A stretch of 41,640 nt of DNA, taken from contig JAGOQI010000001.1 in the NCBI GenBank assembly GCA_017991515.1, positions 1 through 41,640 of the forward strand, written 5' to 3'. Position 1 is the first letter of the stretch. Each line of letters begins with the position of its first letter. Below, one piece after another: positions 26,524 to 31,290 of the stretch. This stretch comes from Minisyncoccota bacterium (GTDB lineage Bacteria; Patescibacteriota; Minisyncoccia; Phycocordibacterales; UBA9973). The position numbers were made by a program, and so were the translations under genes. The notes beneath the pieces were generated by a model. That model saw nothing but the letters and a program-made list of their open reading frames with translations, did not search any database and had not been told where the DNA came from.

Positions 26524-26703
26524 GTGAACTAATTCTAACATTTGCGCGAACTTTTTTCCAACAGCAAATGTACTAATGCGGACTCGGTTTTGCGAAAGCA
26601 TCTTTCTGGGGGCAGGGATTTCGCAAAACCTCGGCTACTGATTTTTGAAATTCGGCGTGGTTTGGGGTTCGCCCGCAGGAGGGGTCTGGGGAGGAATGCG
26701 GGC
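26524..26703. repeat. Left arm of a 180-bp perfect inverted repeat flanking the retroelement
   Basis: Exactly the reverse complement of 30782-30961; every base was compared by eye and no mismatch was found. It is much richer in GC than its surroundings. It contains an internal 12-bp inverted repeat (GGTTTTGCGAAA/TTTCGCAAAACC) and an outward-facing start of a reading frame (ATG at 26601 on the minus strand). The two arms enclose 4078 bp holding the whole DGR. Confidence 0.95.
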
Positions 26704-27099: not shown

Positions 27100-28179
27100 T
27101 CACTCTTCCCATGAATTAATTTTTCTCAACCTGTAACTATTCGCATGTCCAAAGTGACCGAGATAAGATTGAATCATTGAGATATCATCCACCGACACAA
27201 ATCCATCACTATCTAAGCGACGATATAACTTGTCCTTAAATCTACGGACAACTTTCTGTCGAACCAAGACATGTGTTGGTTTAATAAAATATCCTAGAAA
27301 ATCAACACCTTTTGAGACATGTTGTAAAACAATTTTTTCTGGGTGAAGCTCGAGCGCAAGGTGTTGTTTGAGAAAATTTCTAATACAAGGTATGTATGCT
27401 AGAAGTATATCTTTATCAGGGTTTATCATGATAAAATCATCGACATATCTCGCATAGTTACGACAGCCGAGAGTTTTAGTTACAAACTGGTCTAGCTCAT
27501 TGAGATACACGTTAGCGAAAAATTGCGAGGTCAGATTACCAATAGGTAACCCTTTATTATGCCCAGAGTAAAAAAGAGATTTATTTTTTGGAATAAGTTT
27601 AATAAGTTCTGGGTCGCCTTTGTAAATAAAATTATCCGTCGGGTTGTGAAATATAATTGCACGAGAAAGCCATAGCATATCTTCTTGCCACAGAGTACTT
27701 TTAGCACTACTTTTTGTTTGTAAACATATATATCTTTCAATAAACTTGGCTAAAATTACCCTATCTATTGAAGGAAAGAAACTACGAATATCAAGTTTTA
27801 GATAATACCCACTCGCATTGTGGTAGACAAATTCTTTGACTGCTCGCATGGCGCGATGCGTACCTTTGCCCTCGCGGTTGGCATACGAATGCCTGATAAA
27901 ACTTTTGTCACAGAATTCATAGATTTCGTTATAAAAAAGATGGTGGACGACCCTGTCACGAAAGTCAGCAGCGAAAATCTCTCGAGGTACAGGCACAGTG
28001 GCGATGAAACAAATATGACGAGACGGGATATATTTGTGTGATAATAATTCATCTCGCAAATCAATAAGATTTTTCTCACGACTAAACTCAAAAACAAGGG
28101 CGTTGACTGTGCGACCCTTGCCACGCTTGCAGTCATTGTAAGCTTTGAAAATCTTTTCTAAAGTAAATATTTCGGACAT
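27100..28179 (-). CDS. DGR-type reverse transcriptase
   Basis: Reverse transcriptase of a diversity-generating retroelement (359 aa). It copies the TR RNA into cDNA with errors at adenines, and the cDNA then replaces the VR. RT blocks are in order: RDRVVHHLFYNEIYEF (about 75-90), motif A LKLDIRSFFPSID (Asp130), motif B GLPIGNLTSQFFANVYL (210-226, with the I/V/L-G-x3-S-Q form typical of DGR enzymes), catalytic YVDD in NYARYVDDFIMI (245-248) and GVDFLGYFI. No maturase or endonuclease domain is present, which argues against a group II intron. The ATG at 28179 starts the conserved protein, 30 nt downstream of the TR; a GTG at 28218 would begin inside the TR. Confidence 0.95.
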   Translation of the reverse strand: MSEIFTLEKIFKAYNDCKRGKGRTVNALVFEFSREKNLIDLRDELLSHKYIPSRHICFIATVPVPREIFAADFRDRVVHHLFYNEIYEFCDKSFIRHSYANREGKGTHRAMRAVKEFVYHNASGYYLKLDIRSFFPSIDRVILAKFIERYICLQTKSSAKSTLWQEDMLWLSRAIIFHNPTDNFIYKGDPELIKLIPKNKSLFYSGHNKGLPIGNLTSQFFANVYLNELDQFVTKTLGCRNYARYVDDFIMINPDKDILLAYIPCIRNFLKQHLALELHPEKIVLQHVSKGVDFLGYFIKPTHVLVRQKVVRRFKDKLYRRLDSDGFVSVDDISMIQSYLGHFGHANSYRLRKINSWEE

Positions 28180-28209: not shown

Positions 28210-28350
28210 CTCGGACACAACGGACGAAGTTGTTATTGTTCATATTGTCATTGTTGACATTGCCATCGTTGAAGTTGACGATCCAAGCATTGTTCGTGTT
28301 GTTCTCATAGGCAGTAGATGACCAGTAATTGTCCGACTGAGTAGCATTGT
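28210..28350 (-). repeat. DGR template repeat (TR)
   Basis: A 141-nt copy of the end of the target gene, between avd and the RT gene, on the same strand. Aligned with 28942-29082 (constant offset 732) it differs at about 20 positions; at every one the coding-strand TR has A and the VR has C, G or T. Read as protein it is extremely Asn-rich (ENNTNNAW, NVNNDNMNNNN) because AAC/AAT codons are the favoured template for adenine mutagenesis. It ends in the same GC-rich GTCCGTTGTGTCCGAG as the VR, the likely initiation-of-homing region. A frame from ATG 28384 with GGAGG upstream reads through it but is not considered a protein gene. Confidence 0.95.
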
Positions 28351-28478: not shown

Positions 28479-28838
28479 TCACTTTTTTGAAACGCTTTTC
28501 CTCCAACCCTCAGCCTGTTTTGTGAGCGCTACTGCTTTTTCTAATAGATAAAGATAACTTTTTTCTCCACCGAGTTGTTTGAGTTCGTTGGCGATACGGA
28601 GGTGAATAATAATTGACTCGGAGCACCAAACGAGCTTGCCGAGTAATTCCCTCCTTTCTTCCGTGCTTCTCGTATTATTGATTTCAAGAATCAATCGTAT
28701 GGCTTCAATATTTGCCTTAATAATTTCAGCCCCTAGTAGATACTTGTATTGTTTATTGAATTTTGGAGTTCGCTCATATAGTTCTCGAAGTAGGGTAAAA
28801 GCATCGGTATATATTGGTAGATGAGAATATTGAGCCAT
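28479..28838 (-). CDS. avd: DGR accessory variability determinant (Avd-like four-helix bundle)
   Basis: A 119-aa all-helical basic protein located between target and TR, the standard avd position. Helices: TDAFTLLRELYERTPKF, KYLLGAEIIKANIEAIRLILE, STEERRELLGKLVWCSESIII and KSYLYLLEKAVALTKQAEGWR. This is the pattern of the Avd/23S-intervening-sequence four-helix-bundle family. Avd forms a pentameric ring that binds the RT and the TR RNA and is required for retrohoming. Spacing to the VR is about 100 nt. Confidence 0.88.
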   Translation of the reverse strand: MAQYSHLPIYTDAFTLLRELYERTPKFNKQYKYLLGAEIIKANIEAIRLILEINNTRSTEERRELLGKLVWCSESIIIHLRIANELKQLGGEKSYLYLLEKAVALTKQAEGWRKSVSKK

Positions 28839-28900: not shown

Positions 28901-28940
28901 CAAATAGTCAAATAGTCAAATAGTCAAATAGTCAAATTAT
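28901..28940. repeat. Tandem octamer repeat CAAATAGT between VR and hairpin
   Basis: Four exact copies of CAAATAGT (28901-28932) and a degenerate fifth (CAAATTAT, 28933-28940), which includes the target gene stop codon region. It separates the VR end from the hairpin. Slippage would change that distance. Confidence 0.85.
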
Positions 28941-29815
28941 CCTCGGACACAACGGACGAAGTAGTTAGAGTTCATAGTGACACTGTAGACACTGCCATCG
29001 CTGAAGTGGACGAGCCAAGCATTGTTCGCGGAGTTCTCATAGGCAGTAGAAGACCAGTAAAAGCCCGACTGAGTAGCAGGGAAATATGTAGGGTCTATTG
29101 CAGGATTAACTCGACCATAATCCACAATAGACATGAGCTCTTTGACATTCGGCAAACGCCAGTCGCTGTGAGTGGCGAGACTTAAGCTATCGCAATAGTT
29201 GATAGCTGGTTGATGGGTTATACCGAGATCACCATCACCATCATCAAAAAGTACTCCGATGGCACTTCCACCAGAACAGTCTAATCCAGTCTGCCCATCA
29301 CTACACTTCTGCCACATCAGACCTGTGGCACTGTCTGTTATAGTAGCATCTCCATTATCAACATAGCCGTGAGCCAGACCTTTTTGTGTTTCTCCATCTT
29401 GGGCTGTAGCAGTACATGGGATTTGTGAAGAACTTCCGTACCCACCGCTGAATGCATTACAATGAGTTTGCCCCGTCTTTGGTAGTCCAGCCTGTCCTGC
29501 CGAAGCACTGCCAGCTACGCCCATATACGTTGTGCCTGTTAATATTTTAGTGGCATCTAAAGTCGGAATGCTTTCATAAATCTGCTTGAGGGTGTGAAAT
29601 GTCGCAGATACTGAACCAGGCGTAGTAAACGAAGCTGAGCTTTCGGCTTGGCTTGTCGTATTGTCGATGAGCCTATTGTAAATGCCATCGAGTGTGTACA
29701 TCGTGCTTGCCGGAACTCCAGGCGGAGTAAGCGAACCAGCAAATGTCGTGCGGACAAATGCCCCGATGATAAATGCGATGAGAACGTAGGAACTGATTTG
29801 TAAGAATTTTTTCAT
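28937..29815 (-). CDS. DGR target: secreted DUF1566 (C-type-lectin-like) variable protein
   Basis: A surface or secreted binding protein whose C-terminal ligand loop is diversified by the DGR. An N-terminal signal/anchor helix (FLQISSYVLIAFIIGAFV) and a Ser/Thr/Gly-rich stalk (about 25-130) precede a DUF1566/FGE-like lectin domain (about 150-292) with DNGDATITDSATGLMWQKC and HSDWRLPNVKELMSIVDYG. The VR forms the last 47 residues. Cys pairs (C120 region, QKCSDG, LDCSGG, NYCDS, RCVRG) suggest disulphides outside the cell. It starts 13 nt after the wall-binding protein gene, in the same operon. The base composition is visibly richer in GC than that of the RT and avd genes, a sign of separate origin. 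Confidence 0.93.
   Translation of the reverse strand: MKKFLQISSYVLIAFIIGAFVRTTFAGSLTPPGVPASTMYTLDGIYNRLIDNTTSQAESSASFTTPGSVSATFHTLKQIYESIPTLDATKILTGTTYMGVAGSASAGQAGLPKTGQTHCNAFSGGYGSSSQIPCTATAQDGETQKGLAHGYVDNGDATITDSATGLMWQKCSDGQTGLDCSGGSAIGVLFDDGDGDLGITHQPAINYCDSLSLATHSDWRLPNVKELMSIVDYGRVNPAIDPTYFPATQSGFYWSSTAYENSANNAWLVHFSDGSVYSVTMNSNYFVRCVRG
28942..29082 (-). repeat. DGR variable repeat (VR)
   Basis: Last 141 nt before the target stop, coding residues about 245-291. About 15 codons differ from the TR reading, nearly all Asn in the TR frame (for example N to Y, S, H, T, P or F). Invariant blocks such as YWSSTAYEN and FVRCVR are kept as scaffold. Confidence 0.95.
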
Positions 29816-29828
29816 AATAATAATGTTG

Positions 29829-30707
29829 TTATTTTAATAATGCACCCCTAGTGATGGGACCGACGATACCATCTATTTTTAAGCTATTGGCTTTTTGAAA
29901 TATGATGACGGCTTGATATGTCTTTGGGCCGAATATGCCGTCGGGGACTAATTGAGGAACTAAGGTTGGAATTTTTGTGTTCAGGCAGGTTTGTAGAGCT
30001 TTGACATTTACATTGTTCATGCGAGGGACTGTCAGCTTGAGTAGTTGGGTAAAGTTGAGGGTACAGGACACAGGAGTTGGTGGAGTTGTCGGAAGTGTTG
30101 CAATCACGATAGTCCCTTCGCTTCCAGTCAGGTACGATCCTTTGCAGTCTGGGTCAGCCAAATCAATCTTTCCATCGTGGTCGTCATCAATGCCATTGTT
30201 GCACTGAGTAATTATTCTTCCGCCGCCACTACTATGCCCACCACTTGAAACTACTGGTGGTCGCCATGATGTTGTGACTTTATAGTCGACAGTACCACAT
30301 GAACTTGTATTGTCACAGTTAAGTGATACCCAGCCTATATTTGGACTATATGCGTAGCCAGAAAATATTCCGGTACTGGTGTTGATAGTGACTTGGGAGA
30401 AATCAATGTAGCCGGTGTTCTCGCTCCAGGCATAGCCCGAAAGCGTGCCGGAAGAGTTCGTTACTTTGTAATCGACAGTTCCGCACGAACTAGTGTTGGA
30501 ACAGTTGAGCGATACCCAACCGATATTTGAACTGTAGGCGTAACCCGCGAGCGCGTCATTTGCCACCGTCACTTGCGAGAAGTCTATCCAGGCCGTATTC
30601 TCACTCCACGCATAACCGGAAGTAGAATCTGCAAAAGCTACTTTTACAGCAAAAAACATTATTGATAATATAAATAAACCGAAAACAAAAATGGGTTTTA
30701 GTCTCAT
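29829..30707 (-). CDS. Secreted protein with repeats, Asp-rich calcium-type loop and peptidoglycan-binding domain
   Basis: A 292-aa exported protein upstream of the DGR target in the same operon. A signal peptide (FVFGLFILSIMFFAVKVAFA) is followed by two tandem repeats of about 57 residues. Each begins GYAWSENT, continues IDFSQVT and ends GYAYS.NIGWVSLNC...SCGTVDYKVT. Then come a Gly/Ser linker, an Asp-rich loop CNNGIDDDHDGKIDLADPDC (calcium-type) and a C-terminal PGB_1 peptidoglycan-binding domain (VKALQTCLN, DGIFGPKTYQAVIIFQKANS, DGIVGPITRGALL). It may anchor or present the variable protein at the cell wall; that is inferred from operon context. The start at 30707 is supported by a TATAAT exactly 6 nt upstream. 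Confidence 0.88.
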   Translation of the reverse strand: MRLKPIFVFGLFILSIMFFAVKVAFADSTSGYAWSENTAWIDFSQVTVANDALAGYAYSSNIGWVSLNCSNTSSCGTVDYKVTNSSGTLSGYAWSENTGYIDFSQVTINTSTGIFSGYAYSPNIGWVSLNCDNTSSCGTVDYKVTTSWRPPVVSSGGHSSGGGRIITQCNNGIDDDHDGKIDLADPDCKGSYLTGSEGTIVIATLPTTPPTPVSCTLNFTQLLKLTVPRMNNVNVKALQTCLNTKIPTLVPQLVPDGIFGPKTYQAVIIFQKANSLKIDGIVGPITRGALLK

Positions 30708-30713
30708 TCCATT

Positions 30714-30742
30714 ATTATACCCCCCCCCGACTGGTTTTCCAA
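30714..30742 (-). promoter_or_regulatory. Promoter of the DGR surface operon with poly-G spacer
   Basis: Minus strand: -35 TTGGAA (30737-30742), 17-bp spacer, -10 TATAAT (30714-30719). The 9 bp of the spacer touching the -10 are all G (30720-30728). Gain or loss of one G would change the spacer from its optimal length. The -10 is 6 nt from the ATG. Confidence 0.75.
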
Positions 30743-30781
30743 GCATTTAGAGTGTTTATAACTAGTCTCATTTAAAACCCC

Positions 30782-30961
30782 GCCCGCATTCCTCCCCAGA
30801 CCCCTCCTGCGGGCGAACCCCAAACCACGCCGAATTTCAAAAATCAGTAGCCGAGGTTTTGCGAAATCCCTGCCCCCAGAAAGATGCTTTCGCAAAACCG
30901 AGTCCGCATTAGTACATTTGCTGTTGGAAAAAAGTTCGCGCAAATGTTAGAATTAGTTCAC
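30782..30961. repeat. Right arm of the 180-bp perfect inverted repeat
   Basis: Partner of 26524-26703. It includes the inner 12-bp inverted repeat GGTTTTGCGAAA (30855-30866) / TTTCGCAAAACC (30888-30899). From ATG 30884 an outward frame of 29 codons begins with the same 26 residues (MLSQNRVRIS...) as the left arm and then stops at 30971-30973. Confidence 0.95.
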
Positions 30962-30993: not shown

Positions 30994-31284
30994 CGCGTTG
31001 TGACCCTAAGCAAGACAACTGCTTGTCTTGTGTCGGGAATCGAACAACGGAAGCATATTTTTTCAGCAGGAAAAATAGCTGAGTTGGTGCCCAGACTTTT
31101 CCAAGTGACTGACGAGGAAAAAGTCGAGGGCGATCCGTGCAACTTCCCCGTAGGGTCACCATCTGAGAATTTTAATTTTTTCTAAATAGACCTTATTTAT
31201 CAAGGCACCAGCTTTCAAAAAAGAGGTAAAAATATCAAAATTAGCCATGACCCTACAGGGAATCGAACCACTAGTACATCGTGG

Positions 31285-31290
31285 TAGAAT
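31285..31290 (+). promoter_or_regulatory. Extended -10 box (leaderless-type) of the TPR gene
   Basis: TAGAAT preceded by TGG, 6 nt before the ATG at 31297. Confidence 0.5.

Follow-up and report, generated by a model that had tools for sequence, protein, structure and literature searches.

The DNA analyzed here, referred to throughout as the window, is a 41,640-nucleotide (nt) stretch from a Minisyncoccota bacterium (GenBank contig JAGOQI010000001.1), in which a promoter containing nine consecutive G residues (the G9 tract) precedes the operon of a diversity-generating retroelement (DGR). Coordinates are those of the window unless another contig is named, and promoter and operon are read on the minus strand. 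The promoter (minus strand, 30742-30714, followed by the start codon) reads TTGGAA-AACCAGTC-GGGGGGGGG-TATAAT-AATGGA-ATG, and the ATG at 30707 starts gene 1, which encodes a signal peptide. The spacer between TTGGAA and TATAAT is 17 nt long, and all nine nucleotides nearest the -10 element are G. Thus, a homopolymer of at least seven residues lies between the -35 and -10 elements, as expected of a phase-variable promoter, with a weak -35. A sequence-only reading of this DNA had proposed the same arrangement of TTGGAA, 17 nt and TATAAT with nine G touching the -10, and its letters and coordinates agree exactly with ours. The promoter consists of the following elements:

30737..30742, minus strand: putative -35 element TTGGAA; its TTG is kept at 17 nt in the sister species G007
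Between TTGGAA and the G9 tract, minus strand: segment AACCAGTC, defined from the sequence
30720..30728, minus strand: G9 homopolymer, the proposed slippage switch; the only G/C run of at least seven in the genome, kept in G007
30714..30719, minus strand: -10 element TATAAT, 6 nt before the ATG, in agreement with the genome-wide -10 position

Downstream of this promoter, gene 1, the DGR target, an Avd-like gene, the template repeat (TR) and the reverse transcriptase (RT) follow one another in a single direction, and the target gene carries the variable repeat (VR):

29829..30707, minus strand: gene 1, with a signal peptide, two repeats of ~50 aa and a C-terminal peptidoglycan-binding domain (PG_binding_1, E 2.6e-11)
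28937..29815, minus strand: DGR target, with a signal peptide and an Lcl_C (C-type-lectin-like) domain (PF07603, E 1.2e-36) and the VR at its 3' end
28942..29078, minus strand: VR, 137 nt, 87% identical to the TR
28479..28838, minus strand: Avd-like accessory protein (bAvd, E 3.4e-7, below the Pfam cut-off; DivGenRetAVD, E 1.4e-4)
28210..28346, minus strand: TR, located by TR/VR comparison
27100..28179, minus strand: DGR reverse transcriptase (RVT_1, E 2.9e-18)

Gene 1, the first gene of the operon and probably leaderless, is separated from the DGR target by only 13 nt. Because all 18 of the 18 TR/VR mismatches fall on TR adenines, this is, on sequence grounds, a true DGR operon; the RT and the Avd-like gene lie nearby, the target is lectin-like, and the RVT_1 and Lcl_C matches are above cut-off. 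The earlier assignment of the promoter to a variable-protein operon is supported: TATAAT occupies the usual -10 place of this genome, and the TR/VR pair, RT, Avd-like gene and Lcl_C target all lie downstream.

We then asked how unusual the G9 tract is within the genome, a draft assembly of 570,666 bases in 18 contigs. Twelve G/C runs are exactly six long, none are seven or eight, and one is nine; this is the promoter tract, which as the sole run of at least seven is over-represented relative to background. In a 131-kb sample, runs of three, four, five and six numbered 827, 200, 28 and 1. A tenfold drop per added base, extrapolated from the 12 six-base runs, predicts ~0.01 runs of nine or more genome-wide, and a fixed ratio of 0.22 per base, which overpredicts the six-base runs, predicts 0.4. 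A chance origin is unlikely, because the only long run abuts TATAAT at the canonical distance from the ATG and recurs in a second species.

The same 131 kb of the genome was used to examine promoter grammar. TATAAT-like (TANVAT) boxes peak 6-11 nt before the ATG and are found at the start of 42 of 133 open reading frames (ORFs); the commonest distance is 6 nt, as in the G9 promoter. Motifs resembling a Shine-Dalgarno (SD) sequence precede only 5 of 76 genes. Because -10 boxes peak at this distance and SD motifs are rare, the genome looks as though it uses leaderless mRNAs transcribed from extended -10 (TGN-TATAAT) promoters; TGN directly precedes the -10 in 19 of the 41 leaderless promoters analyzed, and no -35 peak was detected among them. 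The TATAAT upstream of gene 1 is canonically placed, 6 nt before the ATG, and therefore G9 would be untranscribed spacer. An SD role for G9 was considered and ruled out for the same reasons, namely the rarity of SD motifs and the position of TATAAT.

It has to be asked, nonetheless, whether the tract acts in translation, either as an SD-like stretch of G or as coding sequence for an N-terminal extension from the ATG at 30746 (MLGKPVGGGYNNG-MRLK...), such that slippage would produce frameshifts. The frame is open from 30746 across G9 into gene 1, and in related DGRs (see below) the tract genuinely lies within the avd coding start. However, TATAAT stands between G9 and the ATG in the canonical -10 place, an extension would spoil the gene 1 signal peptide, the ATG at 30707 is usable whatever the tract length, and G007 has no listed in-frame start codon before its tract. 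Together with the scarcity of SD-like motifs, these observations make a translational role for G9 improbable.

A close ortholog of gene 1 (82% aa identity) was found in only one of 60 related genomes searched, G007. The G007 contig that carries the promoter (GenBank JAOAUE010000032.1) belongs to a Candidatus Paceibacterota metagenome-assembled genome. Its promoter reads TTGCCA-AAACGCTC-G9-TATAAT-AATAGA-ATG, with 8 nt between TTGCCA, the -35 candidate, and G9, so that TTG stands at the identical 17-nt distance from the -10. Gene 1 DNA is 74% identical between the window and G007 and the DNA farther upstream 42%, and the promoter core is nearly unchanged. G007 has an additional G10 tract directly before avd and a G9 tract before a second RT. 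This second DGR-type RT lies directly upstream of the G007 gene 1 promoter, and an ORF of 530 aa resembling site-specific recombinases lies near the cassette end (G007:C32, 8906-9961, 3237-4829). The second RT and the recombinase-like ORF suggest that the G007 cassette is mobile.

We searched more widely for promoters of this kind. The pattern G7+TATAAT (GGGGGGGTATAAT) gave 11 matches in 147 genomes of the family, compared to 0 for the reversed control, and 13 versus 4 in 397 genomes of the order. The genes that follow mostly encode signal-peptide or membrane proteins, and in seven cases the ATG lies 6-8 nt past the -10. One homologous promoter in three species of another genus carries G10, G7 and G9 between almost identical flanks, and two paralogous poly-G promoters in one genome carry G11 and G8. 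The sequence-only reading had looked to related genomes for differences in tract length: these homologous promoters of another genus differ (G7, G9 and G10), and the two species that share the gene 1 promoter both have G9. In a broader genome collection, G8+TATAAT-N6-ATG had 32 matches, about the number expected by chance, six of them from Patescibacteria by title. Promoters that combine TTGACA or TTGACT with poly-G and TATAAT were seen in Lachnospiraceae, Bacilli, Streptococcus azizii and others, and are likely further poly-G spacer promoters. Because many matches in other groups combine TTGACA with a poly-G spacer, the device is probably widespread. No G9-type promoter was found in viral contigs.

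Related DGRs carry similar tracts at a different site. RT relatives are present in 29 of the 60 related genomes and in 75 of the 147 family genomes, and 77 family RT loci had usable upstream sequence, which was scored from -110 to +15 of the RT start. A run of G7 to G14 is found at the divergent avd/RT junction in 57 of these 77 loci, whereas none of 535 equal-sized control windows farther upstream has a run above five, and C-runs in the same windows never exceed four. In several RT loci that lack poly-G, (GA)n, (GT)n or (TGGC)n occupies the equivalent place, and similar tracts near RT starts are seen in four further families of the order (G036, G039, G051, G053). TR/VR pairs whose mismatches fall mostly or entirely on adenines are present at 32 or more of these loci. 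The G9 tract of the window could in principle be a chance run or an assembly artefact, given that homopolymer lengths in a draft assembly can be off by one base. This explanation is strongly disfavored, because the same element is present in the independent assembly of another species and such tracts recur at most of these DGR loci.

In the related loci, the region between TR and RT contains an ORF on the opposite strand, which matches Pfam bAvd in five tested examples (E 4e-9 to 1e-16; one just below cut-off). In the avd sense, the tract is a run of C or of TC within the initial codons (...GPPPAAPSALL..., ...SLSLSLSLSL...). Of 60 tract-bearing loci, 20 have an ATG upstream of the tract that shares the frame of the avd body, and in most of the remaining 40 a one-base change would put an ATG in frame; this count uses ATG starts and leaves room for non-ATG starts, and one third in frame is the expectation for random length. 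Of 77 species pairs whose flanks are at least 80% identical, 42 differ in tract length, although the pairs are not independent. The flanks stay conserved while tract length changes, which points to slippage. We had first assumed that these RT-proximal tracts are promoters, but set this aside since avd on the opposite strand puts the tract in the 5' coding end of avd; they may nevertheless act as promoters for the RT. A role as initiation of mutagenic homing (IMH) sequence or as part of the TR was ruled out, as the TR end is ~400 nt distant.

Could the G-run instead be a fixed promoter part, acting for example through spacer stiffness or regulator binding and held at nine by selection? Two species whose gene 1 sequences have diverged to 74% identity share exactly G9 and the 17-nt spacing. 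Moreover, 7 of 26 related promoters carry an exact DnaA-box 9-mer (TTATNCACA) 29-41 nt before their G tract, compared to 0.12 expected, which indicates other regulation on these promoters. In contrast, homologous poly-G promoters elsewhere vary between 7, 9 and 10 G and paralogous ones between 8 and 11, and the avd/RT tracts range from 7 to 14 and can be replaced by other simple repeats. A fixed element without phase variation thus appears unlikely. The window itself contains a near match to the DnaA box, TTATAAACA.

We consider it probable that the G9 tract works as a contingency element at the level of transcription, a slippage switch on the DGR operon resembling that of porA. G9 would form the 3' half of the spacer in a sigma-70-type promoter, and the leaderless mRNA made from it would comprise gene 1, the DGR target, avd, TR and RT. 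During replication, slipped-strand mispairing would add or remove G residues, and such changes would go uncorrected for lack of MutL-type mismatch repair: MutL was found neither in the genome of the window nor in 24 of 25 relatives (25 of 26 genomes), and it is present in 11 of 14 control genomes. The number of G residues would set the -35/-10 distance, with the 17 nt at G9 as the optimum, and a change in spacing would raise or lower expression of the diversified surface protein together with the mutagenesis machinery. Because G9 takes the position of TGN, this promoter may depend more on -35 spacing than TGN promoters do.

Several observations weigh against this model. TTGGAA shares only 4 of 6 positions with TTGACA, and control positions often score as high. 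Because the -35 is weak and no -35 boxes are detectable in the other leaderless promoters, -35/-10 spacing may carry little weight. Both species with this promoter carry G9, with no length difference between them. Finally, the avd/RT tracts would work chiefly on translation, and so would back slippage on DGRs generally rather than the mechanism proposed for the G9 promoter.

A known precedent is the Neisseria meningitidis porA promoter, in which a poly-G tract (9-11 reported) lies between -35 and -10 and expression is graded by its length (PMC3639595); the sequence-only reading had invoked this case, and poly-G in a promoter spacer is indeed an established phase-variation device. The window likewise has a poly-G spacer in a surface-protein promoter, but this promoter is leaderless, its host is an ultra-small bacterium of the Paceibacterota type, and the operon is a DGR. 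The contingency genes of the Campylobacter phasome are reported to have poly-G/C tracts of G7 or more near or in gene 5' ends, with frame-dependent ON/OFF switching (PMC6321876, PMC4965091). The avd genes of the relatives resemble them in having a G7+ tract at the 5' end and frame-dependent ON/OFF states; the switched Campylobacter gene is usually a surface-modifying enzyme, whereas here it would be an accessory protein that belongs to a mutagenic retroelement. The RT, Avd, adenine-specific TR/VR differences and lectin-like target are those of BPP-1-type DGRs and of clade 2 in the candidate phyla radiation (CPR) (Roux et al. 2021, PMC8144416). Homopolymer control would set this DGR apart from known ones, for which we found no such report; the words "homopolymer" and "promoter" are absent from the text of PMC8144416. 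In the one library searched, judged mostly by titles and abstracts, we found no literature linking DGR genes with homopolymer phase variation, or phase variation by simple sequence repeats with Patescibacteria.

Other repeats lie within and around the cassette:

28901..28937, minus strand: 8-bp tandem repeat in the gap between the VR gene and avd, 4.6 perfect copies (TRF score 74, the highest in the window)
30782..30961, plus strand: right arm of an inverted repeat, 100% complementary to 26524-26703
26524..26703, minus strand: left arm of the inverted repeat, 100% complementary to 30782-30961

The tandem repeat begins at the target-gene stop and is followed by a CTCCGCC/GGCGGAG hairpin. It is a possible second slippage site, and changes in its length may alter the VR-to-hairpin distance or avd expression. 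The inverted repeat, perfect over 180 bp and with internal hairpins, flanks the entire DGR cassette, and homologous recombination could therefore invert the cassette. A third copy, a 72-nt piece with 89% identity, lies at a contig end (G000:C1:7-78). Fragments resembling tRNA T-arms (GTTCGATTCC) at 31000-31290 adjoin the right repeat and are possible integration scars; ARAGORN detected no tRNA genes in the window.

DGRs are expected to need regulation, as constant mutagenesis would destroy useful target variants, and to our knowledge the way in which they are switched is largely unknown. The family-wide association suggests that DGRs of these lineages have simple-repeat contingency as a regular component. 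The placing of simple repeats on DGR cassettes and on promoters of surface proteins would be a family-wide habit, with G9 as one case, and in related DGRs a tract inside the avd 5' end would switch the Avd reading frame. The sequence-only reading, which is borne out in part, had envisaged two independent layers of variability at this locus. The operon is that of a DGR, but the two layers may not be independent, because the tracts of relatives, which that reading had not noted, sit on the mutagenesis machinery at the avd/RT junction; slippage may switch not only expression but also diversification. On balance we find it rather likely that targeted hypermutation is itself phase-variable, with DGR cassettes in several families bearing simple-repeat tracts, mostly at the avd start of the avd/RT junction and sometimes, as in the window, in the target-operon promoter, so that clones split randomly into lineages that diversify or display and lineages that do not. 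If this is true, locked and diversifying lineages would persist in one population by way of a repeat switch on Avd, RT or the target promoter that is stochastic, heritable and reversible, and the CPR would hold a large set of simple-repeat contingency loci.
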